Of a DNA stretch of 46,826 nucleotides, positions 3 through 46,826 are shown one piece after another (position 1 is the first letter of the stretch; the number at the start of each line of letters is the position of its first letter). A program made the translations under genes and the position numbers. The notes under the pieces were generated by a model. It saw nothing but the letters and a program-made list of their open reading frames with translations, did not search any database and had not been told where the DNA came from. Source of the stretch: Flavobacteriales bacterium (GTDB lineage: Bacteria; Bacteroidota; Bacteroidia; Flavobacteriales_D; Sanyastnellaceae); assembly GCA_022428285.1 (NCBI GenBank), contig JAKMCX010000009.1:1-46826 (forward strand), written 5' to 3'.

Positions 3-923
3 AATGTGATTCCGGGCGTCGCCATCGCCACAGCCCTGATGCCTCCTCTGTGCACAGCAGGATATGGATTGGCCAACGGTGAATGGAACTTTCTGGCGGG
101 CGGATTCTATCTGTTCCTGATCAACACAGCCCTGATTGCGCTCTCTACCTGGCTGGTAGTCCGGTACTTGAGGTTCCCCATCCTCCACTATGTAGAGCCA
201 GCCTTGGAGCGCCGATACAAGCGGCTCTCCGCCCTTCTCTTCCTGGCGCTCCTCGGTCCTTCTGGCTACATTTTCTACAACATCGTTCAGGAAAGCAGGG
301 AAAATGCGGCTTTGCAACTTTTCGTGCAGAGCAACATGGAAATCCCGGGCAACACGGTCGACTTGGAAATCAACAGGGACGTGACCCCCCCCGAGCTGGA
401 GGTGTCCATTTACGGTTCCATGGTCACCGCCGAGCAAGAAGAGCAGTGGAAGCAACAGCTCGCTGCTGCCCACCCCAAATTCAACCTGAACCTCATCAAC
501 AACGGCATCAATGAAGCGGACATTGAGGAAATCCGGGAGCAGATGGCGTTTATGATGAGCAGCTTCTCCGACCTCACCGCCAAGGACCGACAGATTCAGC
601 AACTCAATGCCGAACTGACCTTGACCAGCGGCCGCCTGCGACAATTGGAGTCGAAACTGCTCCCCGCCGGAATTGGCAATGAGCTCTACACAATCTGCCC
701 CAATGCCACCCGCGTGAGGTGGGGACGGATCAACGAACAGGGCCGCAGCGCCCAGGTTCCAGAGACGTTCATGGCACAATTGGAAGTCACCTTAGATGCG
801 CCTTTCCCCCGGCCTCAAATGGAAGACTCCCTTCGCAATGTGCTCACCAATTGGATTCAAGCCAGGCTGGCCTCGAACCACCGAATGGAGGTGTCCATCC
901 AGTACGAGACCGCGTTGCCTTGA
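3..923 (+). CDS. DUF389 family membrane protein, 3' part (5' end outside window)
   Basis: The frame is open to the left edge (Asn codon at 3-5, then a GTG), so the start lies upstream; the visible part is about 306 codons. It opens with the hallmark NVIPGVAIATALMPPLC stretch of DUF389 (TIGR00341-like) proteins, followed by hydrophobic segments at about residues 28-52 and 73-92. After these comes a soluble C-terminal region with paired-helix character (EEIREQMAFMMSSFSDLTAKD, then LTLTSGRLRQLESKL), probably extracytoplasmic. The family is widespread but its function is not established. The TGA stop overlaps the TTG proposed as start of the next gene, which suggests translational coupling. Confidence 0.85.
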   Translation, partial: NVIPGVAIATALMPPLCTAGYGLANGEWNFLAGGFYLFLINTALIALSTWLVVRYLRFPILHYVEPALERRYKRLSALLFLALLGPSGYIFYNIVQESRENAALQLFVQSNMEIPGNTVDLEINRDVTPPELEVSIYGSMVTAEQEEQWKQQLAAAHPKFNLNLINNGINEADIEEIREQMAFMMSSFSDLTAKDRQIQQLNAELTLTSGRLRQLESKLLPAGIGNELYTICPNATRVRWGRINEQGRSAQVPETFMAQLEVTLDAPFPRPQMEDSLRNVLTNWIQARLASNHRMEVSIQYETALP

Positions 924-1612
924 GAAAGTTTCTGAGACTGAGCCTTCAGGGGCTGCGCTGGCCCTTGGGGGCGGTGACCCTTTTTGGGCTTCCGGCAGCC
1001 CTCCGGGTCATTTGGACCGAAATCCACCCCATGCTGCGCACAGACCAGTGGCCATTTTGGGCGGGATTTGTGGGCACCTTGATCCTGTGGACCGCCTGGT
1101 GGAGGCACACGCGTTGGGCCCGGTTCATCACGACCATTGAGCACGAATCACTGCACGCCATTGTGGGCATGCTCACCCTGATTCCGGTTCGAGAACTCAA
1201 GGTGCGGGAGGATGGCAGCGGCCATGTGCTCTTCGAACCGCCCGGTCATTGGCTCCTGTACCTGTCGCCCTACTTCATCCCCCTGCTCCTGCTCATGGAA
1301 ATCGGTCTCACGGGGTTGATGGGACTTCCCGTTTGGGCCGAGCGCGCTTTACTGGGCGCCCTCCTCGGAATGTCCATTGTGGGTCACTTGCGACAGATCC
1401 ACCCGCGACAAACCGACTTCCGCCATGCGGGCAGGGTGTTCACCATATCATTTTTGCCCACAGCGTTTCTGCTGGCATACGGCGCCGCCTTTACCATGAT
1501 TCAAACAGGCCAGCTCGGGGCCATTCCAGAATTCTTGGGGGCTTGGGTGCAAGGCCTGCTGCACGACGCACAGTGGGCATGGCTTCATTTGAGCCAGTGG
1601 TTGGCAGGCTAA
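920..1612 (+). CDS. M50-like integral-membrane metalloprotease
   Basis: The proposed start is the TTG at 920 (MRKFLRLSLQGLRWP), whose last bases overlap the upstream TGA; the first in-frame ATG alternative is at 1031. The product is 230 residues with several hydrophobic segments (about 16-30, 45-60, 112-138, 143-157, 173-193). HESLH (residues 75-79) is an HExxH zinc motif inside a membrane context. A later HPRQTDF segment (161-167) could give the third ligand, Asp166, as expected for site-2-protease-like M50 enzymes. Substrate and pathway cannot be read from the sequence. Frame and motif are secure; the start codon is not. Confidence 0.65.
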   Translation: MRKFLRLSLQGLRWPLGAVTLFGLPAALRVIWTEIHPMLRTDQWPFWAGFVGTLILWTAWWRHTRWARFITTIEHESLHAIVGMLTLIPVRELKVREDGSGHVLFEPPGHWLLYLSPYFIPLLLLMEIGLTGLMGLPVWAERALLGALLGMSIVGHLRQIHPRQTDFRHAGRVFTISFLPTAFLLAYGAAFTMIQTGQLGAIPEFLGAWVQGLLHDAQWAWLHLSQWLAG

Positions 1613-1619
1613 GCCCCGG

Positions 1620-2579
1620 TCACTCCCAACGGGAAACGAAATCCGCCACGTCAGATTGGTGGCGCTTGTTCCAGCGGATCACCTTGATGATTTGCGTGGT
1701 GTAAATCAAACCCGCCAAACCAGCAGCACCCCATTTTGCTTGCTTGTAGGGCTGTGCCGCTTCTTCCGCAGAGGTTTCACTTCCAAAAGGACGTTCCAAC
1801 TCCTCTTCATAGGCCTTGGTTTCCAGGTTGGACAGCAAGGCCGCCGCACCCCCAAAGATGGCGATGCTCCAAAAGTTACCGTTGCCTTTTTTGCGCTTTC
1901 GGTCGTTGTATTCCACCGTCCAGTTTTGGGATTCTCCGTAGGTGACGTAGGGAATTCCTGAGCCGGGCAGCAAAGCACTGCACAGCATGCCCACTGCGGC
2001 AGAGCGGTGTCGAAAACCCGTCAATTCCGCCGTGGAACTCACCCCCGAACCACTCAATTCATGGTGCATTTCAAAATCGTAATTGCCAGAAGGGGCTTTC
2101 ATTTCGATGCCGTTCCAACCGGACACTTGGCGCAACCGGTAAGAAGCCAAGTCTTTGTCTTCGCCAAAGTCATCTGAAATGGCGGCCGGGACATTGAACC
2201 AATCGTCCCGGAACTTCATCGAAAAACCATAGTGCTCGCTGGTTTTCACCTTGAACCTGAAGCGGTCACCCCACAGCTCTTCCACCTCCTCGGCAAAGTT
2301 CCAAACGATTTTTCGCTTGCCGGGCATGACCCTCGGACCCACATCGCCAGAAACGGACTTGAGCGGCCCCCTCCACGTGTATCCATCGTCTTCGCTGAAA
2401 TAGAGCTGCACGGTCAACGGGCGGTCTGCCTTGAGCTGATAACTGACCTCCAGCTCCTCCGCAAAGTCTTTAACATTCAGCTTGTTAACGCTCTGGGACG
2501 CTCCAACAATGGGCACCACGCACCACAGCACAGTCAGCAACTGAAAGGCAACACATCGGTTCGAATCCATCCTTTCCAT
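1620..2579 (-). CDS. Exported protein of unknown function, third gene of the caspase operon
   Basis: The start is taken as the ATG at 2579 (METMERMD... frame, beginning MERMDSNR), 8 nt after the caspase gene's stop; an ATG at 2570 is equally possible. About 319 residues. A hydrophobic signal sequence (QLLTVLWCVVPIVGASQ) is followed by a domain with SVSGDVGPRVMPGKRKIVWNF, a pattern I associate with Bacteroidota exported proteins that carry a short beta-sandwich before a variable C-terminus. Two hydrophobic stretches near the C-terminus (SIAIFGGAAALL and WGAAGLAGLIYTTQII) suggest membrane attachment. No catalytic motif is visible. Tight spacing implies co-expression with the caspase-like gene. 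I do not recognise a function. Confidence 0.75.
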   Translation of the reverse strand: MERMDSNRCVAFQLLTVLWCVVPIVGASQSVNKLNVKDFAEELEVSYQLKADRPLTVQLYFSEDDGYTWRGPLKSVSGDVGPRVMPGKRKIVWNFAEEVEELWGDRFRFKVKTSEHYGFSMKFRDDWFNVPAAISDDFGEDKDLASYRLRQVSGWNGIEMKAPSGNYDFEMHHELSGSGVSSTAELTGFRHRSAAVGMLCSALLPGSGIPYVTYGESQNWTVEYNDRKRKKGNGNFWSIAIFGGAAALLSNLETKAYEEELERPFGSETSAEEAAQPYKQAKWGAAGLAGLIYTTQIIKVIRWNKRHQSDVADFVSRWE

Positions 2580-2587
2580 CGTTTCAA

Positions 2588-4285
2588 TCAATCGTCCAAT
2601 CCCCACAAACGCCATTCATCGATGATGGTTGGCGCAACACGGACGGAAGGTTCTTGGTCTCGGCCGTCCCGATTGGACTGCAGTTTGACCTCTTTTCGGA
2701 CACCGTCAAACATGTCCCCGTAATTCAGTTTCCCTTTGGATTCCTGCATGTACTTGAGCAGGAAATAAGTGAAGTAACCGTGCTCTTGGTCCTCGAAAAC
2801 GCCGCTCGACTGGTTGCCAGAACTGGACGCAAAAACAACAGCATTGCCTCCTGCTTCCACCTCCTCTGGCACCCGCGCGAGCCCCTTCATGCCAGCAATC
2901 AGACTCTCATTGCGGGCACCACCCGAGAAACAAGCGTCCAAAAAGACCGTGGTCCTCTTGGTCGGCGTCTCGCCCAATTCCGCATACACCTGTTCCAATG
3001 AAAGCCCAAGTTCCGGGGCATCGCCGTCCACATCTACCGGAATCAAAAACGGCTCTTTGGTCGCCTCGGAAGGCAAGCCATGACCGCTGTAATAAAAAAT
3101 CAATTCAGCCTCGCCTTCCAAGGCCTCGGCAAAGTTGGACAACTGCGCCAAAGCACGCTCCATCGTCACCTTCGTGGCATTGATTTCCAAAATGATGTTC
3201 TCTTCGGGAATGCCCCACAGTTTCTGGAGGTATTGCTGCATGATGTGCGCATCGGCTTCTGCAAACGGAACATTCTGAGTGGGGTTCAATCCCGGGTTGG
3301 ACGTCGCATACTTTTCGTTTCCAATGATCAAAGCAAATCGCTGGTCCTGGACCTTTTTGACGGTTGGAATGTTGCGGTCAACATCAGAACCAAAGAAAAC
3401 GGCACTGCCAGATCCGGACCCATCCGAAGTGGGCACCTGCCACATCGCTTGGTCCAACATCGCCTCCAGCGGCAAAGCACCAATAAAGGTCTCCGCATAC
3501 CGGCCAAGCGACTCGTCCAAAACAACCTTGAACTGGACTTCCTGATGCGGGTAATCAGGCGGTACGATGACCGAAACCCACAGCTCTTTGACTTCGCCAG
3601 GTTCCATCTGATTGAACTTGAAGCTCTGGGTGGACAGCGGCTGCACGCCTTCGTCGAGAAGCTCCAATTCGCAGCGCACGTCATAGGCAAAGCCCGCCCC
3701 TTTGTTGCGCACCAAGAACTGGTAAGTGAAAGCCTGCCCCCGTATGATTTCCCCTTCCTTGACCCTGTGGTCCACCACCAATAGCTCAGGTTGCCTGAAT
3801 TCTAGGGTGTTGATGTTCACCGAAGTTTCGGGGGGGCCAAAACCAAGGGGCTCCTGAATTTTCAGAAAGACCTTCAATTCACCATCCTTGGTTTTCATGG
3901 AAGACTGGATCGGCACCGCAAACTCCATGGTGGCCCCTCGGGGCAAATCGGCCAACCGAATCTGCTCCGAAACGGTCACGCCCGAAGACGCACCCTCCAA
4001 TCGGATTTCACACACCATGCCTTGGGCATCCCCCAAAGCCGTTGGGGCATTGTTGAGTTTGTAGGTCAGCGTCGCCTGTTCGTTTGCGTCCAAGTATCCG
4101 TTGCCATTGTTGTCTTCGAACCGCACACTGCCCTCCACAATGGACAGCTGCGGCGGTGCAATGACCGGACGGCGCTGAATGGTCATGGCCCGCTTCGTCA
4201 CCGCCTCGACTTGGGCATCCACTGCCCACGTGCCCGCAGCCAATGCTCCCAACAAACACACCACCCCTTGTATGACTCCCTTCAT
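2588..4285 (-). CDS. Secreted caspase-like (peptidase C14) protein
   Basis: 565 residues. An N-terminal signal peptide (about 1-24, hydrophobic core VVCLLGALAAGTWAV) precedes a beta-rich region. A 12-residue loop at 58-69 (DNNGNGYLDANE) matches an EF-hand calcium loop, and a second sandwich-like domain covers about 165-270. The SDVDRNIP linker (300-307) leads into a caspase/metacaspase p20 fold beginning RFALIIGNEKY (316-326). The catalytic dyad is visible: His402 in YYSGHG and Cys452 in DACFSGG. C14 enzymes cleave after Arg/Lys or Asp; the specificity here is unknown. The ATG overlaps the stop of the upstream DUF4384 gene by one base (TGATG on the minus strand). Family assignment is firm; biological role is inferred only. 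Confidence 0.9.
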   Translation of the reverse strand: MKGVIQGVVCLLGALAAGTWAVDAQVEAVTKRAMTIQRRPVIAPPQLSIVEGSVRFEDNNGNGYLDANEQATLTYKLNNAPTALGDAQGMVCEIRLEGASSGVTVSEQIRLADLPRGATMEFAVPIQSSMKTKDGELKVFLKIQEPLGFGPPETSVNINTLEFRQPELLVVDHRVKEGEIIRGQAFTYQFLVRNKGAGFAYDVRCELELLDEGVQPLSTQSFKFNQMEPGEVKELWVSVIVPPDYPHQEVQFKVVLDESLGRYAETFIGALPLEAMLDQAMWQVPTSDGSGSGSAVFFGSDVDRNIPTVKKVQDQRFALIIGNEKYATSNPGLNPTQNVPFAEADAHIMQQYLQKLWGIPEENIILEINATKVTMERALAQLSNFAEALEGEAELIFYYSGHGLPSEATKEPFLIPVDVDGDAPELGLSLEQVYAELGETPTKRTTVFLDACFSGGARNESLIAGMKGLARVPEEVEAGGNAVVFASSSGNQSSGVFEDQEHGYFTYFLLKYMQESKGKLNYGDMFDGVRKEVKLQSNRDGRDQEPSVRVAPTIIDEWRLWGLDD

Positions 4286-5214
4286 CAGTATCGTTGTTGA
4301 GGTTTAATCCGAATGAACACCCGCTGCATTTGAAAATGGTCCGAACGCCCTGAGTTCTGCTTGACCCACCGCTCAAACTCCTCCTTGCCCAGCGTCCACA
4401 TCTGGTCCTCTTCCTGCCAATTCATAGCAGGTGGCGCAAAACTGTGCGTTGCAAAAGCACCCATCAAGATCGCCTGTGAGTCCATCTTGTCCTCATTGGT
4501 CACCTGAAACCCCCAGGCGTATCGGGCCATGCGGTTCAAGCCTTGCTGGGACGCCTCCACTTCCAACCACTCCGATTCATTGCTGAAGAGCGAATACACC
4601 TGCTGGCCCTTCACCTCTTCTGCAAACTCCGAGTTGTTGTTGGACAGCGCATAGACCAAGTCTTTCTCGAGGTAAAAGAACATCACATGCCCATCGACAG
4701 GCGACTGAAAACGGGCACGGACGCGGTCCCCAGCTTCCAAAAATGTCACCGGCCTGAGACCAAGGACATCCGAACACAGCTCCAACACCACATCGACTTT
4801 GTCCTCTTTGATGGGCTGCGCCTTTCCTTGGACCCTCACGGACCACCAGATTTCATTGTCACGCACCTCTGCAAAGGGGCCTTCAGTCTCCGTTGTTTCG
4901 ATCCACTCGCCTTTGACTTGCAGCACGCTGAGCTCTGTAAAGGACCCGTCGGTCTGGCCATTGAAGTCCGAAGAAACCTGCACGGTTTCGCTGTTGATCC
5001 GGGTGCCAAATGCCGCCGCAATGGCCCTGATTTTGGCCTGTTCAACGACCCATTCTTTGGCCTGTTCAGTGGTCCTGCCTTGCGGGTTGGCGAAGTACTC
5101 CCAGCCCGAGTCCACCTTTTTTGTTTGCGCAAACAACACAACGCTTCCCCCGATCAAACAAAGGAGCAGAAAAGACCGGTAAGCCATCTGCAAGGGGAAC
5201 GTGGAGCGCTTCAT
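4285..5214 (-). CDS. Exported DUF4384 domain protein
   Basis: 309 residues, first gene of the three-gene minus-strand operon. The signal sequence lies at about 12-30 (SFLLLCLIGGSVVLFAQ); an alternative ATG at codon 10 (5187) would also leave it intact. The middle (about 165-255) has the DUF4384 look: FLEAGDRVRARFQSPVDGHVMFFYLEKD, then a LYALSNNN-like strand. DUF4384 domains are often fused to or next to caspase domains in bacteria and are thought to be non-catalytic. That fits this position directly before the caspase-like gene. The N-terminal part (EQAKEWVVEQAKIRAIAAAFG) resembles a small alpha/beta module of exported Bacteroidota proteins. Domain call is moderate, export is likely. Confidence 0.75.
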   Translation of the reverse strand: MKRSTFPLQMAYRSFLLLCLIGGSVVLFAQTKKVDSGWEYFANPQGRTTEQAKEWVVEQAKIRAIAAAFGTRINSETVQVSSDFNGQTDGSFTELSVLQVKGEWIETTETEGPFAEVRDNEIWWSVRVQGKAQPIKEDKVDVVLELCSDVLGLRPVTFLEAGDRVRARFQSPVDGHVMFFYLEKDLVYALSNNNSEFAEEVKGQQVYSLFSNESEWLEVEASQQGLNRMARYAWGFQVTNEDKMDSQAILMGAFATHSFAPPAMNWQEEDQMWTLGKEEFERWVKQNSGRSDHFQMQRVFIRIKPQQRY

Positions 5215-5332: not shown

Positions 5333-5785
5333 ATGAGGGCTGTCGTCCAAAGGGTAAGCCGCGCTGAAGTGCGGGTAGAAGGGAAAACCATCGGGTCCTG
5401 CGGCCGCGGCCTCATGGTCCTGCTCGGCGTGCATGCCGAAGACACACAAGCGGATGCAGAATGGCTGGCTGCGAAAGTGGCGGCGCTTCGGATTTTTTCC
5501 GACAGCGAAGGCAAGATGAATTTGTCCATCACAGACGTATCTGGCGGGGCATTGGTGGTCAGTCAATTTACCCTGCACGCCAAATACAAGAAGGGCACCC
5601 GCCCCAGCTTCATTCATGCAGCACGGCCAGAAACGGCCATTCCCCTCTACGAACACTTCGTGAAAAATCTAGAGGAACACCTCAAGAGACCCGTGGCGAC
5701 CGGTAAGTTTGGTGCCACGATGGAAGTGGACCTGGTCAACGATGGTCCCGTCACGATCACCATGGACACCCAGCACAAGGAATGA
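5333..5785 (+). CDS. dtd: D-aminoacyl-tRNA deacylase
   Basis: 150 residues, the usual Dtd length. Dtd removes D-amino acids (and mischarged Gly) from tRNA in the cytoplasm, a translation quality-control step. Visible signatures are the start [13 protein letters not shown], the SQFTL motif (77-81), the KGTRPSF segment (about 87-93), and the C-terminal NDGPVTI (136-142), equivalent to the family's Gly-Pro loop (usually NxGPVT). The ATG at 5333 matches the canonical N-terminus. The stop overlaps the next gene's start (ATGA), so this gene is translationally coupled to the MazG-like gene. Confidence 0.96.
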
Positions 5786-9137: not shown

Positions 9138-10730
9138 TCAGCCACCCAAAAAATAGCGGAGGCTCACTGTGGCGGGCAATTGGCGGGGGAAAGTGCGGGA
9201 AACCGCATCCACTTTGTGCAACCCAGCCTCGGCGGCCATAGCGTCATAAACAGGCACTTCAACGATGTACTGGTCCGAAAACCCATGGGTCGCATCGTAC
9301 GCTGTGGCGGGCATCCGTCCGTGACGTTCTGCCGCATCTTCTGGAGACATGGTGTGGAGCTCAATCACCAACAAGCCGTGTTTCTCCACATGAGGCCGCC
9401 ATTTCAGGAAGTGCTCCTTCAAGCTTTGCTCCACGTCGCGCGCCCGCAAGCGTTCACCGCGAAAAGCAAAGGCACCCGTGGTGAGCACTTGGGCATCTCG
9501 ATGCCCTTCTGGCCGATTAAAAACACGGTTGTGGTCCAGAAAAGAACGGACATTGAGCAGTTCACCGAGGGCGATGCCGTGCCGGCCTTGTAAATCGCGG
9601 TCCAATCGATCGGGATCTCCAATGTCTCCCCAAAGGAAATGCCCATCGACCCCTTCTGACCGGAAATGGGTGGCCGTCGCATCAAGTGCAGCTTGATTAA
9701 AATCGGCACCAACCAAAACCAATGGATGGGAATCCAAATGCTGGCCTCTGAGCGTTTCTGAGCGGATGAATTCTTCCAAATGGAGCAGCAAAGCGCCATT
9801 GCCACAGCCCATATCGCAGAGCCCAACAGGTTGGTCCTCCAATGGTGCATCAAACACCGTTCTCACAACTTCGTCCAGGTGCAGGAAATAAGCGCCATGG
9901 GCACCGCCACTCCCCCAAACATTGAGGGTTCGGTCCACATGAATTTCGGCCTCACCCGGCGCAATGCGCCACAACCGACCTCCATCGCCAAAAGTGAGTT
10001 CATCGGCCCACAAAAACGTCCGGATATATGAAGTGGTCACCCCATATGCGGCTGAACGCGCCAAGAAGAAACCTCCCTTTTCGGTCCCCATAAAGTCCAA
10101 GGCGTTCAAGGCGCGCAACGCCGCTTTTCCGCGGGACGGGTGCAAGCGGGACAGCGCCACAGATACCGAAGCCCAATCAGCCAGCGGATCGGTTCCGTGC
10201 AAGGTGCCCAACGCCACAAACCAAGGAGCCGCTAGTGCGCCCTCGAGGTGCGCGCGCCAAGGCGAATCGCCCAAAGACTGCAACACCTCTATAAACGCCT
10301 CCATAGAAGCCTCCTCCGAGGAGGTCCAAGGCGCTTCAGGTCGGTTCCACATGCCTTCCGCGGCGCGCAACCATTCCTGGCCCTTTCGCGCAAACACCAC
10401 ACCTTGACGCCATGTCTTCCACCCCTCCTTTGAGGACCTTCGGTAACACACGGCATCACCATCGGTTTCGCGGATCAACCACCCTTGTGAGGCACACAAC
10501 CGGCACAACACATTCAAATAGCCGGGGTTGGCACCAAGCGAAGCTGCCAACGCGTCCAAGTCGTGGGGCTCTTTTGATTCAAACGCATCCAGAACGCCAT
10601 GCTCTTGAAGCATCGGAACCAAAATGGTGAGCGCGAGACCATCCAAGTGGTGAAAAAGTGATCCGCGCCAAAGCTTGGCATGGTCGGAATGGGGGGCCAA
10701 AAAGGCCCCATGTGGTAAACCTGTAGACAT
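9138..10730 (-). CDS. Class I SAM-dependent methyltransferase, large N-terminal domain
   Basis: 530 residues. The N-terminal half (about 18-120) looks like a dimerisation/winged-helix region of O-methyltransferase type (FHHLDGLALTILVPMLQEHGVLDAF). The Rossmann domain begins around residue 300, with motif I CDMGCGNGALL (305-315), and a VWGSGGAH segment just before it (271-278). An acidic-loop candidate is VGADFN further on. The overall design recalls stand-alone methyltransferases related to the AprA-type methyltransferase domain of polyketide assembly lines; that likeness is from memory and unchecked. No biosynthetic partner genes are nearby. It follows nadE by 72 nt on the same strand and converges with the propeller gene. 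Confidence 0.8.
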   Translation of the reverse strand: MSTGLPHGAFLAPHSDHAKLWRGSLFHHLDGLALTILVPMLQEHGVLDAFESKEPHDLDALAASLGANPGYLNVLCRLCASQGWLIRETDGDAVCYRRSSKEGWKTWRQGVVFARKGQEWLRAAEGMWNRPEAPWTSSEEASMEAFIEVLQSLGDSPWRAHLEGALAAPWFVALGTLHGTDPLADWASVSVALSRLHPSRGKAALRALNALDFMGTEKGGFFLARSAAYGVTTSYIRTFLWADELTFGDGGRLWRIAPGEAEIHVDRTLNVWGSGGAHGAYFLHLDEVVRTVFDAPLEDQPVGLCDMGCGNGALLLHLEEFIRSETLRGQHLDSHPLVLVGADFNQAALDATATHFRSEGVDGHFLWGDIGDPDRLDRDLQGRHGIALGELLNVRSFLDHNRVFNRPEGHRDAQVLTTGAFAFRGERLRARDVEQSLKEHFLKWRPHVEKHGLLVIELHTMSPEDAAERHGRMPATAYDATHGFSDQYIVEVPVYDAMAAEAGLHKVDAVSRTFPRQLPATVSLRYFLGG

Positions 10731-37265: not shown

Positions 37266-40200
37266 TCAGCACTCAGTACCGAAGGCACCCAAGAAGATCA
37301 ACAGGTCAGATGTGGTTGTCGTACCGTCTCCGTTCAAGTCCGTAGGACAAGGGTTGGCGATATCGAACGTACATCCACCATCATCGTTGGTAGCTGTCGG
37401 TTCGTAGTTAGATGCGTCTGGGTAAGTACAACCCATCACGTAGTTCTGGAAGTCACAAAGGTCATTGTTGACGACGTCAACACTGTCTGGATCCACATAG
37501 TTTGGAGCAAATGGCAAGCCACATCCTTCAGTACAAGGAGTACCCAGACCAACTTGGAAGGTTCCAGGACCTCCGCTAGTGGTGTTGAACGCATCACCTG
37601 AGATGCTCCATGAAACCTCACTTGGGAATCCTCCCTCAGTCACAATCAAAGTGTAGCAACCTGCGGCATCGAGACAAAGAGCGTCTGTGTCGAAGTCACC
37701 GCCGTTCTCAGTGGACAGCAATCCTCCCTCTGCGAGAAGGTTACCCTCAGAATCGTAGAAGCTGTAGGTTGCGTTGTTCCATCCGTCACCGAAGCTGTCG
37801 AACATATTGAACTCAATAGATGCGCCGAAGCAGCATGAGCCGTCATCCACAGAAGCGAATGGATCGTAGTTCACAGCCTCTGAGTTTGTGCAACCCAAGC
37901 AGCTGAAGTCACAAAGTGCGTTGTCCGCGAAGTCCACAGGGCCGTTGTAGTTACAAGCTGTAGTATCAGCACAACCTGTCGTTGGAGCAGGAGCACATGT
38001 GATAGACAAAGCGATAAAGAGGTCAGAACCAGACACACAACTCACTGAACCATCAGAGGTAAAGCTTACAGTCAAAGAGTCGGTACCGATGACAAGGCTC
38101 TCGTCAGGATCAACGTCGCTGTTGTAGAGGTTGGCACCCGTAGCAGCATCATCGATCACCAGTTCGTCCCAGTTCTGCTCGATGGATGTTCCCGTCAAAT
38201 CCACCACGATGGTGCCTCCGTTCGGGTTCACCAGAGTGAAGCTCCAAGACTCGTTGCTATCGTAGCAGTATTCCCAAGACTCAGTTTCACAATCAAGGCA
38301 GCTTGTGAAGTCACAAGGATCATTGACGTCATCCACGTTTGCATCCACATTGTAGTTGCAAGCGAGTTCGTCCATACAACCGTATACAACTGGCTCGCAA
38401 GTAACGCTCATGTCGAACTCACCACCAAGCGATCCAGAACCTGCAGCTACGAGGATAGCGTAAGTGCTAGCCTGTGCGTCGCTGATGAACTGGAAGGTCT
38501 CACCATTGTCACATGTCTCTGACATGGTAACAGTGTTGTCACCCTGGTCCCAGCAAATCAAGCTAGAGCAGAGGCCAGTTCCACCAAAGATGGTAAAGGA
38601 CTGCTCCACTGTTGCTCCGGCAGGGAAGTTGAACGGGCTAGCCTCCAATGTGAAGGCAAAGCTTGAGCCAGCACCATCAACGTCTCCCGCAACAACGAGG
38701 GCATCGCCACCAGCTGTGGTCACGTTGACGTCATCAGAACCAGTAGTGCCAATTCCGTCGCCGAAGCCATCCGCCACGTCCAACGTGTAACTACCTGCAG
38801 GCAGGCAGAGGGTCTCAGTATTGGTAGAGTTGGCAAATTCAGGAGCACCACTGGCGACTACTGAACCACTGCTATTGGTGATGGTCCAACTGGTCTCACT
38901 CGGGTAAAAGTCAGTGTTGATGCTCACATCGAAACACACCTGAGGATCAGTGGTACAATCACCGCTGCACAACAGATCCTGAGAGGAGCCGTCTGTAGAA
39001 ATAACTTGAGCAGCAATGCCGTCCAATTCTGTACCCTCATTGGTGAAATACACCGTGTAGTCACCACCAGACAAACCGTAATAGAAGTCGTTGAAGACGG
39101 TCGGGAACAGGTCACCCGCAGGGATGGTCGCTACAGTGTCACCGTTGAATACGATAACGGCACTGATGTTTGAGTAGTTGTCGACATTCAAGCTGTTCAC
39201 CTCGAGCGTAGCATCAGGTGCATCAACATCCTGGAAGACATCAAAGATCGTATTGACAGTGGAGCCACAAGTGCTCACTGTAATCAGCTGCTCCATCCCT
39301 CCGTTGTCAAGGGTGTACCAGATTCCAGATCCAGATCCTCCACAAGCATTGGTTCCACCAACACTAGTTGCACCACCGGTGTTACCCGCAATGGTCTCTC
39401 CACATGCTACAGCAATGGCATTGCTACAGCTGTCATTCGGCTGCGTTACTCCAACATAGAGGCAGTTGGCATTCACCGTTGCATCTGGGTTGTAGTTCGA
39501 CGCAATGGGATCAGTACATCCTGAAATCTCAGCAGAAACGCTCACGTTATATGAACCACAATCATCCGTTTGGGTCGTCCACACGAACAAGTAGTAGCTG
39601 TTGTCATAGTTCGGAGAAGCAATTGAGACCACTGCTGGTCCTTCCACTTCGTTGCCGAAGTACTGGTTCATTTGCGTCTGAACAGATCCCTGAACAACAC
39701 CTGAGGCCATGTCAGCCAAATCGGTGCAATCATCACCATTGTAGGTAGCGTAACCGATTGCTCCTGTTCCAGTAGCATCAACAGTGATGTTGTAGAGGTT
39801 ATAGGGAGCTTCAACAGTGACTTGATACCAAACACCATAAGCTGTTGCAAAGGTGCTCAAGCTTGGCATGCCAAAGTCCTCATCTGGACCAGAGCAGCAA
39901 AGGCTACCGTCATATGATCCACCGTCAACCAATGGAAGTGCCAAAGTGCACAAATCGTCATTGTTAGGGAATCCATCAGGGCAAGAAGCACATGCCGCCT
40001 CGAGAACGATGCCTGTCTGGCTGCTCGTGGAACCATATGTACTGACACGTACGAGGTAGTTGTTACCCTGCTCAGCGTTGATGCTTACGATAGAGTTGAA
40101 AGTTCCAGTAGTTCCAGAACCACATCCAGCCACACCGGAGTCATCGTTGGTTGCGATTGCAGTGAGGGATCCGTCTGTGCCTACAGCGAAAACCACAACA

Positions 40201-42539
40201 TCAGTATCGGTGATGCCATTGTCTACGTCTGCTGAAGCGCAAGTGTTAAAGGTGACCTGGTAGTCTTGGTCTGAGTTGAATTCATACCAAACAGCACCAT
40301 TGGTAGCAAGAGCGTTACCCAAAACCGTGGTACCACCATACTCGTCAGAGTTGGCATTCTCCAATGTACCAGTCAAGATCAAACCACAAGCGATCGCCTG
40401 AGCGTCCTCCGGATTGTCATTTGCAGGTGGGAATTCACAGCTTCCATCATCCACAGAAGCAGAGATGTTGTAGTTGTTCGCGAGCATGTCAGTACATCCT
40501 CCGAAGGCACAATCCGTAACATCCAAGCCGCCAAATGCGACAGGGTATCCGTCTGTGGGACCATAAGTCAGCGCAGCGTATTCGTTACCCAAGTTGTCAG
40601 AGATGGCCCAACCTTCAGTGGTGAAAATGCTTCCTGTGCTGAAAGTGTAGCAACCAATGTCCAAGCAATTGATGACTTCAACCGTCGTAGCACCTGACTC
40701 CATCGTTCCCTCATAAATGGTATCGCCAGTCTCCTCGCTCACCAAGTAGTAATCGTTTCCTGGAGACCAGCCAGAAGCGAAGTCGTCCTGCAAGGTCAAG
40801 AAGAATCCAAGCTGACCATTGTCACACACAACACAAGAGCCATCATCAATGGTAGCATCTGCATTGTAGTTGATCGCTGCTGGCAGCGTACAACCGCTCA
40901 AGCAAGTGGCCTCTTCTGATCCAAAGCCGATGTCATACACACCCAAAGTACCGTCGTGAATCACGTTTCCAGCGAAGTCCAGGATGTACCAAGAAGCCTG
41001 TCCAAGAGGCGTACCGCCTCCACCAGAGAACTGAAGACATGCATCGTTAGGAATACAGAACTCCCAATATCCGTCCACCACTGTGGCCTCGAGATCTGGG
41101 GTGTACAAATCGTTGTTGTATCCAGCTGACAGCAGAGTGTCACCGGTGGAAGGATCATAGATATACGCCGCATTGTTTCCCCAGAACAGGTAAGTGTCGT
41201 GGTTCAAATACAAGATGTAAGACGTGCTATCCGCATTGCCAATGCAACTTGGAGAGAAGCAGCTTCCGTCATCAGCAGTTGCAGTCTCATCGTAGTTGAA
41301 GGCATTGCTGTCCGTACATCCACAAGTAACATCTCCTGTTGCAACACCAAACACTCCAAATCCATCGTTGGCAGTGAAGTCATAAAGGATTTCTCCAGTG
41401 TTGTAGTCAAAGATCTGCCACTCCTTTTCTCCAGGGTAGATGCCTCCAGAAATCTCGAGAACATAACATTCGGTAGTGGACAGACAGAAGAAGTCGTATC
41501 CCTGAGCACCTGGATCAACAGTGAACAAAGCATTGTCCAAAGAACCAGAGTTCAAAATCTCACCCGCTTGATTCGAGAGGGTATAGCTAGCGCCATCCCA
41601 ACCGTCACCAAAGGTGTCATACATCATGAATTGAGCCAACACATCATCTGGGTTGTCACAACTTGGGAAAACACAGCTTCCATCATCGATGGTAGCCTCT
41701 CCGCTGTAGTTCAATGCCTCAACATCTGTACAACCGCAAACTTCTTCAGTCAGTCCGTAGTAGAACTCGACCGTACCACCGCCTGCATCAGCAGCAATGT
41801 TCTCGCCTGTGTAGACATTCACCATGGTCCATCCGATTTCACTGAGGAAGCTTCCGCCACCGCTCGTGACTTCATAACAAGCCCCCACTGGGATGCAGAT
41901 GGTATCCTGTCCCGCGTTGAAGCCACCGCCAGAACCACCGGATCCTGTAGCAGAGGCATCCAATGATCCAGAAGCGATCAAAACATCGTCAGCATAGACT
42001 TCATAGGTATTGCCGTTCCAACCGTCTCCCCAGGAGTCAGTCATGTTGACAAACACCATGGTTTGCGCCTCATCTGGGCATGCATCGAAGAGGCATGAAC
42101 CGTCATCGAGGGTTGCTGTATCGTCATAGTTCAAGGCGGCAGTATCCGTACAACCTGGAACGTCGCTCGTCAAGGAGAACACAAAAGTCGTACCACTACC
42201 CGAAACTGAACCGGCGCAATCACCAGCGCAGTTAAACGGAGACGCGTCAACAGCGATGGCCGTACCTCCGTCACCATAGGTGTCGTCGATAAAGACAGTA
42301 TAGTCTCCAGCGCCATAGGAAGCGACGGAGTACACGTTTACATCACCGCCCCCATTAGGGAACAATGTTGCACCGTCTACGTTAAGAATGGTGTCCCCGT
42401 TGAAGGTGACAATACAAGTCGACACTTCGCCAGGCCAGTTGTCGGCCGTAAAAGTGATGGTCTGCGCCTGCAAGGACGCAAAGAGGGCCAAAGCAAACGT
42501 GCTTAGGGTGCCTCGGAGAATGAGATTTCTCAGGTTCAT
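37266..42539 (-). CDS. Giant secreted Cys-rich repeat protein (GCTD repeats) with dockerin-like tail
   Basis: 1757 residues from ATG 42539, with signal peptide (1-26, FALALFASLQAQ). Eleven GCxxxxAxNYxxxA...DDGSC repeats occur near residues 129, 269, 408, 550, 681, 1008, 1386, 1521, 1548, 1672 and 1703; the first five are spaced about 140. Between them lie FGDGWNG-type modules (e.g. 167-245, 307-395), two domains near 705-850 and 860-1005 of WYEFNSDQDY/GVWYQV type, and a CUB-like segment (about 1415-1500). The tail ends CPTDLNGDGTTTT...FGTEC, a single dockerin-like calcium loop flanked by Cys. Probably a cell-surface or secreted adhesin; no catalytic motif was seen. GC content looks lower than in the division cluster. 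Confidence 0.88.
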   Translation of the reverse strand: MNLRNLILRGTLSTFALALFASLQAQTITFTADNWPGEVSTCIVTFNGDTILNVDGATLFPNGGGDVNVYSVASYGAGDYTVFIDDTYGDGGTAIAVDASPFNCAGDCAGSVSGSGTTFVFSLTSDVPGCTDTAALNYDDTATLDDGSCLFDACPDEAQTMVFVNMTDSWGDGWNGNTYEVYADDVLIASGSLDASATGSGGSGGGFNAGQDTICIPVGACYEVTSGGGSFLSEIGWTMVNVYTGENIAADAGGGTVEFYYGLTEEVCGCTDVEALNYSGEATIDDGSCVFPSCDNPDDVLAQFMMYDTFGDGWDGASYTLSNQAGEILNSGSLDNALFTVDPGAQGYDFFCLSTTECYVLEISGGIYPGEKEWQIFDYNTGEILYDFTANDGFGVFGVATGDVTCGCTDSNAFNYDETATADDGSCFSPSCIGNADSTSYILYLNHDTYLFWGNNAAYIYDPSTGDTLLSAGYNNDLYTPDLEATVVDGYWEFCIPNDACLQFSGGGGTPLGQASWYILDFAGNVIHDGTLGVYDIGFGSEEATCLSGCTLPAAINYNADATIDDGSCVVCDNGQLGFFLTLQDDFASGWSPGNDYYLVSEETGDTIYEGTMESGATTVEVINCLDIGCYTFSTGSIFTTEGWAISDNLGNEYAALTYGPTDGYPVAFGGLDVTDCAFGGCTDMLANNYNISASVDDGSCEFPPANDNPEDAQAIACGLILTGTLENANSDEYGGTTVLGNALATNGAVWYEFNSDQDYQVTFNTCASADVDNGITDTDVVVFAVGTDGSLTAIATNDDSGVAGCGSGTTGTFNSIVSINAEQGNNYLVRVSTYGSTSSQTGIVLEAACASCPDGFPNNDDLCTLALPLVDGGSYDGSLCCSGPDEDFGMPSLSTFATAYGVWYQVTVEAPYNLYNITVDATGTGAIGYATYNGDDCTDLADMASGVVQGSVQTQMNQYFGNEVEGPAVVSIASPNYDNSYYLFVWTTQTDDCGSYNVSVSAEISGCTDPIASNYNPDATVNANCLYVGVTQPNDSCSNAIAVACGETIAGNTGGATSVGGTNACGGSGSGIWYTLDNGGMEQLITVSTCGSTVNTIFDVFQDVDAPDATLEVNSLNVDNYSNISAVIVFNGDTVATIPAGDLFPTVFNDFYYGLSGGDYTVYFTNEGTELDGIAAQVISTDGSSQDLLCSGDCTTDPQVCFDVSINTDFYPSETSWTITNSSGSVVASGAPEFANSTNTETLCLPAGSYTLDVADGFGDGIGTTGSDDVNVTTAGGDALVVAGDVDGAGSSFAFTLEASPFNFPAGATVEQSFTIFGGTGLCSSLICWDQGDNTVTMSETCDNGETFQFISDAQASTYAILVAAGSGSLGGEFDMSVTCEPVVYGCMDELACNYNVDANVDDVNDPCDFTSCLDCETESWEYCYDSNESWSFTLVNPNGGTIVVDLTGTSIEQNWDELVIDDAATGANLYNSDVDPDESLVIGTDSLTVSFTSDGSVSCVSGSDLFIALSITCAPAPTTGCADTTACNYNGPVDFADNALCDFSCLGCTNSEAVNYDPFASVDDGSCCFGASIEFNMFDSFGDGWNNATYSFYDSEGNLLAEGGLLSTENGGDFDTDALCLDAAGCYTLIVTEGGFPSEVSWSISGDAFNTTSGGPGTFQVGLGTPCTEGCGLPFAPNYVDPDSVDVVNNDLCDFQNYVMGCTYPDASNYEPTATNDDGGCTFDIANPCPTDLNGDGTTTTSDLLIFLGAFGTEC

Positions 42540-42565
42540 GATTAAGGTTTTTTCCAATTGCCGGA

Positions 42566-42594
42566 GCAATATAGCGGAAACGGAACCGAATCAA
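42566..42594 (-). promoter_or_regulatory. Candidate Bacteroidota promoter for the first giant repeat gene
   Basis: On the minus strand TTG (42594-42592), an 18-nt spacer and TATATTGC (42573-42566) approximate the -33/-7 pattern, with one or two mismatches in the -7 element. The spacing equals that of the candidate before mraZ. The leader to the ATG would be about 20-25 nt. Confidence 0.4.
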
Positions 42595-42773: not shown

Positions 42774-45700
42774 TTACTCGGTACAAGGGTCGCCGAAACT
42801 GATCAAGAACGCGAGCAGGTCAGCGGTTGTAGTCGCACCGTCTTGGTTCAAATCAGTAGGGCAAGGACTCTGCAAGATGAATTCACAAGTGCCGTCATCC
42901 TGAATGGCATTCGGGTTGTAGTTCTCAGCGATGTCATACTTGCAGCCTCCACAGCCGTCAAAAATGCAATCCTCCAGAACCGTAATGTTGGCTTCAGGGT
43001 TGTAGTTACAAGCCACCGAGACCGTGCATCCAGAGACACAATCAGATTCGCCAACCTCAAAATACACGGGGCCGGCGGGTGCGCCTCCCGAGGTAATGCC
43101 ACTTGAAGTACCCAACAAGGTCCATCCGACCTCCACCGGAATCACTCCCGCGGAAACTTCGAGGTAGTAACATCCATCTGCCAAGCAGAAGTTATCCGTG
43201 CCGCTGGTGCCTTCCGGGGTTACCGTAAACCCAACACTGGGAAGTCCTCCTTGAGCAAGCAACAATCCATCTACGCTATACAAGCTGTATTGAGCTCCGT
43301 TCCAACCATCCCCGAAGTCATCCGTCATTTGGATGCGAACACAGCTGTCGTAGCAACAATCATCTGTAGAGATGGTGGCCGTCTCATCATAATTGCAAGC
43401 CGTTGCATCGGTACAACCCGCGCAACTTTCATAATCACATGATCCATTGTCAGAAGTGGCAGCAGGATCAAAGTTGCAGGCTCCGGCATCCACACATCCG
43501 CACACCACACCTCCGAGAGAGAAGTTCACGGAGCCAATGGCGCCTGATACCACTTCACCATCTGCCGTAGAAAGCGTCCAAGTGATCTCCTCATCGAAGT
43601 CACCTCCGCCTACCGTCAGGGCGTAGCAACCCTCCACAAGGCAGAAGGTGTCAAAACCTTCGTCTCCACCCAGGAAATTGTCGACATCCAAAATGTATGC
43701 AGCACTGTCCAAGTTGCCAGAGAGCAAGGTGTCTCCACTGGCGTCTGTCAGGTAATAATCCGCACCATTCCAACCGTCACCAAAGCTGTCGAACATGTCC
43801 AACTTCAAAGCAATTCCATCGGTAGCTTCCTCTGGACATGCACAACTCAAGAAGTCACATGACCCGTCCTCAATGTTGGCCTCTACATCATAGTTGCAAG
43901 CCACATCATTGGTACATCCCTCCACTGCTGGGGCGCAGCTCAGGCTGATCTCAACAGTACCATTGTCATCGGTGATGGGGTCACCATCGGCGTCCTCTGC
44001 ACTGACATATGCATAATAATGTCTGCCGGGCTCAGAAATGAACTGCACCCAAGCATCGTTTTGATCGAAGAAACCGCAATTGATGAAGTCGGCCTCTTCC
44101 GAAGCGTAAACCCCATCCTCTACCGTGAGCACACACTCAAACAACTGGGGAATACCTCCTGCACACACAGCATCACTCACATAGAGGTTGAGCTTGGAGT
44201 CAATGTTAGAACCACACAGACTCAGTGTATGCAAATCACCGGTACCCTCGAAGGTGTACCAAATTCCAGGTCCTGGAACGGGGTCACAACCATTGATCAA
44301 GTTGGGTGCACCGAGGTTCGTTGCGCCACCAGTAGAACCTGCCAAAGACGTATTGCAGTCCAAAGCTTCTGCCGTTCCGCATGTATTGTTAGAAGGCACC
44401 ACTCCTGCGTAGTCGCAAGTGCCGTCGTCCATGGTCGCAGTGGGGTCATAATTGGGGGCCGCATCATCCATGCAACCCAAGTAGACGCCGTTGGTCAAGA
44501 ATTGATACTGACCGCAGTCTTCGGGGTCTGTGGTAAACACATAGAACAAGTAGTCCGTGTTGGCTTGAAGCACCGTGAAGTCACTGATCTCACCTGCACA
44601 TTGCTCGGAGACAAGACATCCAACCTGCGCCTCGAGGTCCCCACAAGAACCCACGTCGAAAATCGCAAGACCGATGTTGGCCGCATTCAAGTTCAGGAGG
44701 TCAAAGAAGAAAGTCTCGTAATCCAAGCTGTTGAACTGGTACCAAACACCATAACTGGTTTGGAATCCTGCCAAGAAACTTACGTCTACGTTGTCGGGGC
44801 TAGAGCAGCAGACGGAGCCGACGTGGGGCACACCATTCTGAAGTTCCAACGCACTGCTGCAATCGTCATTGATCGGAGCACCACTGGTGCAATCGACGCA
44901 TTCTACTGACAGCAGGAATTCATCTCCACTGGTGTACTCACTAAATCGGGTGACATATATATAGTAGTCCTGGCCCTGCTCCACATTGAATGCGACTTCA
45001 CTCATAAAGCCCTCCGAGCAACCATCGTCGTTGCCACCGAGGCACTCCAAGTTGTCGAGGTCTCCATCCGTTGCCGCAAAGACAAACACTTGAGAGTCAA
45101 ACAAGGGGTTACCAGCTGGGTTAAACGCATCCGTGCCGCATGTGGAAAGCACCATCTGTTGATCAGACTGTGCATTGAACACATACCAAACACCCGCAGC
45201 GCTGATTTCTTGACCCGAGCAAGTCGTTCCGTTCAGGCCTTCGCCGTCGACCGCGTAGGTCAACGTCCCCGCGATTTGAGCGCCACACTGCACCGCTTGT
45301 GCACTGTAAGCATAGTTGTTGTTGGGGGGACACTCGCAACTGCCGTCATCGTCGGTAGCACTTGGGTTGTAGTTCAAGCAGAAGGGATCTGTACATCCCA
45401 AGAATGAGCAAGAACCGGTCTCACCAAAGTCGACACCAAAGCTGGAAACTTCATCGACTCCTGTGCCATAAAAATTACCGACCACGTCTTCGAGGTACCA
45501 ACCGATGTCGTCCGAATCATCGCCGGGCGTGATGTCAAACACATAACATCCAGGCTGCAAGCACACGAGGTCAACACCACTGGTCAGACCATCGCCTTGA
45601 TCCGAATTGTCCAAGGTTCCCGTCGCCGCAATGTCACCGTTCAAATCAGAAATGTAATAGACACCGCCATTCCAGCCATCGCCAAACGCGTCTGTCATGG

Positions 45701-46826
45701 TGACTTCGAGGATGAGCTCACCGCCAGCGCAATAGACACATGTCCCATCGTCAATGGAGGCTGAAGGCGTAAAGTTGGTCGCGTTGAAGTCGGTACAACC
45801 GTAGCAAGAGAAATTACAGAAGCCACTGTCGAAGACAGCATTCGAACTGAAGTTACAGGCCGTGGGGTCTGTACAGCCCACGGGGCAGCTCACGCCTCCA
45901 AGGGTTATCCTGTCTGCACCGCTGATCAATTGATCACCGAATTCAGCTTCATCCAAAGAACCGGTGTACACCACCTGCCCATCAAACGTGCTGAACGTAT
46001 AGATTCCATTGTTCCAGCCGTCCTGGAAACTGTCGAACATCTCGAAGTTGTAGCATCCCTCTGGCAGACAAACAGCATGAGAGCCTGCGCCACCAAAGTC
46101 GACCACGGTGTTGGTTTCCATGTTTCGGATGTTCCAGCTGATTTCGCCGTCCCAGCTTCCACCACCTACTTCGAGAAAGAAGAAGTACTCCTCATAGCAG
46201 CATGTTCCATCATCATAAATGGCCGCGTCGTCATAATTGACCGCATCAGCCTCCGTACAACCGTAACAACTGTAATCACAATCTCCATTGGAAATGGTAG
46301 CGTTCTGGTCGTAGTTACAGGCCGTAGGGTCTGTGCAACCTTGGCAAGACAAGTACTCACAGCTTCCATCATTGAAGTTTGCAGCTGGATCATAATTACA
46401 GGCACCAGTAATGGTGCACCCCTCATTCAAACACTCTGGGTTTCCTACATAGAAGAACTCTTGAATGGTGCCGCCAGCAACTCCCGGGCCTCCTTCCAAA
46501 ATCAACTGTTCTCCGAGGTATATCTCCCATGAAGCCTCCACCGCGAGGTTGTCGAACTGCAATTCCAAGACGTAGCAATCATCCACCAAACAGAGGTCGA
46601 GCTCAGCCACACCTCCTTCTGTGAACTCGATGCTTCCCAATTCCTGGCCCGCCAGATTGCCCACTGCTGCGCCTCCAATATTGCCTTGACTGTCTACCCA
46701 TCCATTGGAAAAGGCGTCATACAAACGCACCGTTACGCAAGAATCGAAGCAACACGAACCGTCATTGAATCCAGCTTCGGGGTCGTAGTTACAGGCCGTA
46801 GGGTCTGTGCAACCTTGGCAAGACAA
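42774..46826 (-). CDS. Second giant Cys-rich repeat protein, 3' part (start beyond right edge)
   Basis: At least 1350 residues; the frame runs off the right end (the edge codon is an internal Leu), so the signal peptide is not seen. Thirteen GCxxxxAxNY...DGSC repeats are present, several followed by FGDGWNG modules such as MFDSFGDGWNGADYYLTD. A WYVFNAQSDQQM domain and a GVWYQFNSL domain mirror those of the neighbouring giant protein. The tail CPTDLNQDGATTT...FGDPCTE parallels the neighbour's tail. These are paralogues by duplication. Function inferred as surface adhesion or secreted matrix; Ca2+ binding is plausible from the many Asp-rich loops. Confidence 0.88.
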   Translation of the reverse strand: MSCQGCTDPTACNYDPEAGFNDGSCCFDSCVTVRLYDAFSNGWVDSQGNIGGAAVGNLAGQELGSIEFTEGGVAELDLCLVDDCYVLELQFDNLAVEASWEIYLGEQLILEGGPGVAGGTIQEFFYVGNPECLNEGCTITGACNYDPAANFNDGSCEYLSCQGCTDPTACNYDQNATISNGDCDYSCYGCTEADAVNYDDAAIYDDGTCCYEEYFFFLEVGGGSWDGEISWNIRNMETNTVVDFGGAGSHAVCLPEGCYNFEMFDSFQDGWNNGIYTFSTFDGQVVYTGSLDEAEFGDQLISGADRITLGGVSCPVGCTDPTACNFSSNAVFDSGFCNFSCYGCTDFNATNFTPSASIDDGTCVYCAGGELILEVTMTDAFGDGWNGGVYYISDLNGDIAATGTLDNSDQGDGLTSGVDLVCLQPGCYVFDITPGDDSDDIGWYLEDVVGNFYGTGVDEVSSFGVDFGETGSCSFLGCTDPFCLNYNPSATDDDGSCECPPNNNYAYSAQAVQCGAQIAGTLTYAVDGEGLNGTTCSGQEISAAGVWYVFNAQSDQQMVLSTCGTDAFNPAGNPLFDSQVFVFAATDGDLDNLECLGGNDDGCSEGFMSEVAFNVEQGQDYYIYVTRFSEYTSGDEFLLSVECVDCTSGAPINDDCSSALELQNGVPHVGSVCCSSPDNVDVSFLAGFQTSYGVWYQFNSLDYETFFFDLLNLNAANIGLAIFDVGSCGDLEAQVGCLVSEQCAGEISDFTVLQANTDYLFYVFTTDPEDCGQYQFLTNGVYLGCMDDAAPNYDPTATMDDGTCDYAGVVPSNNTCGTAEALDCNTSLAGSTGGATNLGAPNLINGCDPVPGPGIWYTFEGTGDLHTLSLCGSNIDSKLNLYVSDAVCAGGIPQLFECVLTVEDGVYASEEADFINCGFFDQNDAWVQFISEPGRHYYAYVSAEDADGDPITDDNGTVEISLSCAPAVEGCTNDVACNYDVEANIEDGSCDFLSCACPEEATDGIALKLDMFDSFGDGWNGADYYLTDASGDTLLSGNLDSAAYILDVDNFLGGDEGFDTFCLVEGCYALTVGGGDFDEEITWTLSTADGEVVSGAIGSVNFSLGGVVCGCVDAGACNFDPAATSDNGSCDYESCAGCTDATACNYDETATISTDDCCYDSCVRIQMTDDFGDGWNGAQYSLYSVDGLLLAQGGLPSVGFTVTPEGTSGTDNFCLADGCYYLEVSAGVIPVEVGWTLLGTSSGITSGGAPAGPVYFEVGESDCVSGCTVSVACNYNPEANITVLEDCIFDGCGGCKYDIAENYNPNAIQDDGTCEFILQSPCPTDLNQDGATTTADLLAFLISFGDPCTE
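46307..46352 (-). repeat. 46-bp direct repeat, copy 1
   Basis: Identical over 46 bp to 46781-46826, 474 bp (158 codons) away and in frame. It encodes the SCQGCTDPTACNYD part of a repeat. Identity at the DNA level, including third positions, suggests recent duplication or gene conversion of one module. Confidence 0.9.
46781..46826 (-). repeat. 46-bp direct repeat, copy 2 (reaches window edge)
   Basis: Second copy of the 46-bp identical segment at 46307-46352; it may extend beyond the window, so its true length is unknown. Confidence 0.9.

Follow-up and report, generated by a model that had tools for sequence, protein, structure and literature searches.

Results

Gene organization of the locus

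The window, a 46,826-nucleotide stretch of Flavobacteriales DNA, carries three neighbouring minus-strand genes, here named A, B and C. Their features and the two genes bordering them are given below.

923-1612, plus strand: M50B-like gene, left border of the trio site
1620-2579, minus strand: gene C, 319 aa, predicted to be exported; Ig-like N-terminal domain and moderately hydrophobic C-terminal half
1677-2000, minus strand: hydrophobic segments of C (aa 194-301), a candidate membrane module
2232-2501, minus strand: Ig-like domain of C (aa 27-116), called Ig-like from sequence and predicted strands rather than from a solved relative
2588-4285, minus strand: gene B, 565 aa, caspase-type peptidase, predicted to be exported
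2639-3340, minus strand: caspase domain of B (aa 316-549) with His402, Cys452, Asp345 and Asp450
3512-3790, minus strand: CARDB-like domain of B (aa 166-258; PF07705, E=2.8e-4)
4285-5214, minus strand: gene A, 309 aa, predicted to be exported; alpha/beta N-terminal domain and Ig-like, DUF4384-type C-terminal half
4288-4800, minus strand: C-terminal Ig-like sandwich of A (aa 139-309), the region that DUF4384 occupies in homologues
4813-5127, minus strand: N-terminal alpha/beta domain of A (aa 30-134), from the AlphaFold2 model and conserved columns
5333-5785, plus strand: D-Tyr-tRNA deacylase-like gene, right border of the trio site, named by sequence recognition

Three minus-strand genes had been predicted within 1620-5214, with a 1-nt overlap and an 8-nt gap. 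Coordinates, strand and both spacings proved exact, A and B overlapping in TGATG and B and C being 8 nt apart with C starting at 2579. Near-identical spacing was found in two genomes of the same genus (G162 and G098), with an A/B overlap of 1 nt and a B/C gap of 8-9 nt. Judged by this layout, A, B and C form a tight operon. Comparison of the window with its two nearest relatives by YN00 gave dN/dS values of 0.13-0.16 for A, 0.04 for B and 0.05-0.09 for C (overall range 0.03-0.16), which are approximate since dS was close to saturation. Each of the three is under purifying selection and they are therefore real genes, with stronger constraint on B than on A.

Elsewhere in the window, two very large minus-strand ORFs (37266-42569, 1767 aa; 42774-46826, at least 1350 aa) had no Pfam match at E<=1e-4. 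At 9138-10730 on the minus strand lies an AprA MT2-like methyltransferase that stands alone and has an AprA N-terminal domain. AprA MT2-like methyltransferases are known mainly from polyketide loading modules.

Export signals

A, B and C each have a single strong N-terminal hydrophobic stretch (Kyte-Doolittle 1.87-2.17) that ends before a Gln, placing Gln at the +1 position after the leader (Q30 in A, Q25 in B and Q29 in C). Gln at +1 corresponds to the Q-rule for Bacteroidetes signal peptides (PMC5837995). The signal peptides foreseen for all three proteins were thus recovered, called here from hydropathy and motif. No lipobox was evident in the three leaders, and the T9SS sorting domain (Por_Secre_tail, PF18962) had no match in A, B or C. 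Within the B family, a signal peptide with Gln at +1 was present in 47 of 56 ORFs, a set with a few duplicates between collections and several truncated members; most of the other nine were truncated or had an over-extended start. Export therefore characterises the subfamily as a whole and is not peculiar to this genome. The original prediction regarded an exported caspase as an unusual setting for this fold; the export signals and exported partners bear out the setting, whereas its rarity does not stand, as export of a caspase homologue is not in itself unusual in the phylum and a 2012 publication had already pointed to possible signal peptides on such prokaryotic proteins (PMC3501461).

The caspase-type protein B

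B matched the Peptidase C14 profile (PF00656) with E=1.8e-21 and 77.3 bits against a cut-off of 21.4, which places it within that family. The proposed intact caspase dyad was found at exactly the positions given, His402 in YYSGHG and Cys452 in LDACFSGG. This motif was present in 51 of 57 B homologues, and the remaining six comprised three truncated ORFs and three variant motifs retaining both His and Cys. Asp345, Asp450, His402 and Cys452 were invariant in the B alignment, in which an SSSG motif was also conserved. Asp345 and Asp450 aligned with metacaspase residues that correspond, as the alignment was read, to Asp95 and Asp211 of TbMCA2, which are S1-pocket residues of that enzyme (PMC4357240). 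The residues of the acidic S1 pocket seen in Arg/Lys-specific orthocaspases and metacaspases are present in B, and from this Asp pair B is predicted to cleave after Arg or Lys. The CARDB-like domain of B fell short of the PF07705 gathering score (21.5 vs 22.7), which was passed by B homologues (32.6 and 33.9). The position of such domains ahead of the caspase domain suggests a role in protein docking.

The DUF4384-type protein A

A had been named a DUF4384 protein, a label that turned out to be right by transitivity only. The PF14326 (DUF4384) profile gave no match to A itself at E<=1, whereas an A homologue adjoining another B gene (L162) matched it with E=1.8e-13, above the Pfam threshold; matches of the remaining A homologues were weak. 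A joined the DUF4384-matching family through an iterated profile, whose E-values, computed over a small set of ORFs, served to establish linkage and not as strict statistics. By this route, A is classed as a remote DUF4384 homologue.

The AlphaFold2 model of A was of moderate overall confidence (pLDDT 68) and placed a helix-containing alpha/beta domain ahead of an Ig-like sandwich. Blocks of the N-terminal domain mostly reached pLDDT 77-89, with a weak stretch at aa 71-100. Comparison of the C-terminal half with known structures (VIA-align Z<8) returned only generic Ig-like sandwiches, which are a common arrangement. A Foldseek search with the model gave no match at E<=0.001, the N-terminal domain being barely covered by the fold comparison, and a sequence search of solved structures yielded nothing useful for A or C. 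The linkage of A to B, together with the occurrence of DUF4384 inside orthocaspases elsewhere (PMC8283722), makes a dedicated binding or regulatory subunit the simplest reading of A. DUF4384 and C14 domains had been described as often fused; the fusion is known, and it concerns a minority, 23 of 473 cyanobacterial orthocaspases (PMC8283722).

The modular protein C

C had been viewed as an unknown partner ending in hydrophobic segments. The segments, at 194, 234 and 283, are there, with moderate hydrophobicity (1.2-1.4, Kyte-Doolittle) and uncertain membrane status, whereas the unknown partner can now be placed: C belongs to a modular family whose members combine a constant Ig-like domain with variable tails. 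Its structural model was unusable (pLDDT 38.8). Among C proteins encoded beside B, the tails carry moderately hydrophobic segments in the genus of the window, FISUMP in G134 and G312 (and, by eye, in G335), and beta-barrel-like sequences in G508, G291, G495 and G491, the latter recognised by sequence pattern. Away from B, the Ig-like domain is found ahead of FGE-sulfatase domains and of M28 peptidases that end in T9SS tails.

In one genome (G090; L069:3045-5567 and L068:4509-6869), the Ig-like domain interrupts an S46 peptidase without breaking its reading frame (aa 589-680, with peptidase sequence on both sides) and, in another peptidase, lies between PDZ and S41 domains; the contigs hold ambiguous bases, so these insertions deserve caution. 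A second S46 protein of this genome (L063), fused to a CARDB-caspase, has no Ig-domain insertion. Two candidates suggested by eye were rejected: DUF5683 (PF18935) for the C tail had no profile match and an hhalign probability of 1.5%, and a fusion of the C Ig domain to a caspase in G254 was not significant (E=0.07). C may be a general exported-protein module, because its Ig domain occurs without B (M28, FGE-sulfatase) and many B genes have no C beside them.

Distribution of the trio

Conserved synteny of the third gene with the caspase and A genes, the check on which the original prediction was to be judged, was found both in the genus and in the class. B was carried by 6 of the 17 genus genomes searched and by one further contig (L019), and all these loci adjoin the same M50B-like and D-Tyr-tRNA deacylase-like flanks. 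The trio was complete wherever contigs reach, the G205 locus being split over two contig ends and the G206 locus cut by one. In G140, G203, G080, G199, G202 and G208 the flanking genes lie next to each other, with A, B and C all absent. Within the genus, the trio is gained or lost as one block, all-or-none at one site. Trio-positive and trio-negative genomes were interleaved on the flank-gene tree, so the block was gained or lost repeatedly; gene trees were too short to tell a single gain from repeated loss. The contig L019 is publicly labelled Rhodobacteraceae while carrying a Flavobacteriales trio locus, and is probably mis-binned.

Across a class sample of 345 genomes, A was detected in 21, B in 61 and the C domain in 35. 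B was also present in 20 of the 21 A-positive genomes (Fisher p=8.6e-16, which overstates independence because related genomes are treated as independent), and for 18 of 22 A matches, B lay on the same strand less than 1.2 kb away. Of 43 C-domain matches, the 16 strongest and the one in G491 were compared with B, and 10 of these 17 lay within 1.2 kb of it. Co-occurrence of A and C alone was not significant in the 345 genomes (p=0.15). The order A→B→C on one strand recurred in three further families of this class (G508, f23; G335, f70; G312, f42), while the three genes were clustered and rearranged in G134, G495 and G291. In G134, from another genus of the same family, A is transcribed divergently from B-C. 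G491 has a B-C pair in which A was not detected, and many B genes have no neighbouring C.

Bacteroides-type genomes combine A-like and B-like genes in one operon of exported proteins, which lacks C and encodes additional proteins between the two. In two such loci from Bacteroides/Mediterranea (L031:268-7548 and L037:217-7493), an exported A-like protein is followed by a protein of 478-497 aa, a WD40-containing protein and a TPR-CARDB-caspase. An exported protein of 210-265 aa, LPP20/LpoB-like by eye and with a weak LpoB match in one case, is often found beside A in caspase operons (L143, L146, L147, L149, L150, L152, L153, L157 and L158). At L181:3979-8715 (G313), a pair that appears by eye to be sigma-factor-like and anti-sigma-like lies between a C-like gene and weak A-like and B genes.

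Discussion

The trio probably works in the cell envelope. With moderate confidence, we interpret A-B-C as a functional unit, a cell-envelope caspase (orthocaspase) module with A as the regulator of B and C as the part that anchors or aims B. B would be exported by the Sec route, begin with Gln in its mature form and use its CARDB/Ig-like domains for docking. Its predicted activity, in the periplasm or at the outer membrane, is the cleavage of proteins after Arg or Lys. A would serve as a soluble accessory subunit dedicated to B, which it binds or regulates. The constant Ig-like domain would attach C to the complex, and the variable tail of C, with hydrophobic helices here and beta-barrel or FISUMP tails in relatives, would fix or aim the protease. 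The data show the gene linkage, the export signals, the intact dyad with its S1 pocket residues, the purifying selection and the all-or-none inheritance; the physical A-B-C complex, the proteolysis, the docking roles, the trigger and the substrate are inferred.

An unlikely alternative is envelope maturation, in which B would process surface or outer-membrane proteins and the Ig-domain proteins, C included, would be its clients rather than its anchors. The beta-barrel-like and FISUMP tails of C, the presence of its Ig domain in exported M28, S41 and S46 peptidases, and the stronger constraint on B than on A are in keeping with such a role, whereas absence of the trio from at least six genus members argues against essential housekeeping. 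Envelope-triggered cell death or defence, with B as a periplasmic suicide protease, A and C as sensors and the block as an accessory defence cassette, strikes us as rather improbable. It would suit the patchy, all-or-none presence at one site of the genus and the generic caspase match of B in PADLOC, but B did not pass the EACC1-associated caspase model (NF047832; 79.7 vs curated 140), no other defence genes were recognised beside the trio, no phage-protein families matched A or C, and the chromosomal site is fixed. The evidence does not separate the module, maturation and death/defence readings well.

Catalytically altered pseudo-orthocaspases, some with export signals, are known in other phyla (PMC6426788), which could make B a non-catalytic scaffold despite its dyad; this is very unlikely, given that the dyad, the S1 Asp pair and the SSSG motif are conserved and that pseudo-forms are rare in Bacteroidetes (10/1078; PMC6426788). 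Coincidental neighbourhood of A, B and C with no functional link would accord with the occurrence of the C domain elsewhere without B, and is scarcely credible in view of linkage repeated across families, four with identical order and strand, and the joint absence of the three genes within the genus.

Beyond the envelope module proposed for the window, we tentatively entertain the idea that an envelope caspase system is widespread in Bacteroidota, with a core of DUF4384-type subunit and exported caspase and exchangeable Ig-domain third proteins; the mobile Ig domain (S46, S41, M28) might then be a common tag that recruits or controls envelope proteases. The role of caspase homologues in bacteria is a long-standing question, mostly discussed on the assumption of cytoplasmic cell death. 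An exported module that is conserved and has defined partners offers a testable alternative, and genetics is possible through the homologous operon of cultured Bacteroides relatives.

Likely signal peptides on caspase homologues, and caspases joined to WD40, TPR, FGE-sulfatase and DUF4384, have already been published (PMC3501461, PMC8283722, PMC6426788). In the literature covered, which mostly excluded subscription papers and in which absence is not proof, no account was found of the operon, of the common Ig domain or of a DUF4384-type subunit encoded on its own in Bacteroidota, and the A-B-C module appears undescribed.

Among known systems, orthocaspases (peptidase C14, PF00656) share with B the p20 fold, the His-Cys dyad and the acidic S1 pocket, and relatives again show the associations with WD40, TPR and FGE-sulfatase that are known from that family; B differs in being exported, in its N-terminal CARDB/Ig-like domains and in having two separately encoded exported partners. 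Gingipains are exported clan CD cysteine proteases of Bacteroidota that are secreted by the T9SS. They resemble B in clan, export and Arg/Lys specificity (PMC4357240; predicted for B), but belong to a different family (C25) and use the T9SS, whereas A, B and C have no T9SS sorting domain. In the DUF4384-containing orthocaspases of Cyanobacteria and Alphaproteobacteria, DUF4384 is tied to the caspase fold as it is here (PMC8283722, PMC6426788), whereas the DUF4384-type domain of the trio belongs to a distinct exported protein that also has an alpha/beta domain. The Bacteroides-type operon (L031, L037) likewise encodes homologous A and B in a single operon of exported proteins, and differs from the trio in having no C, extra proteins and a B with a TPR extension.
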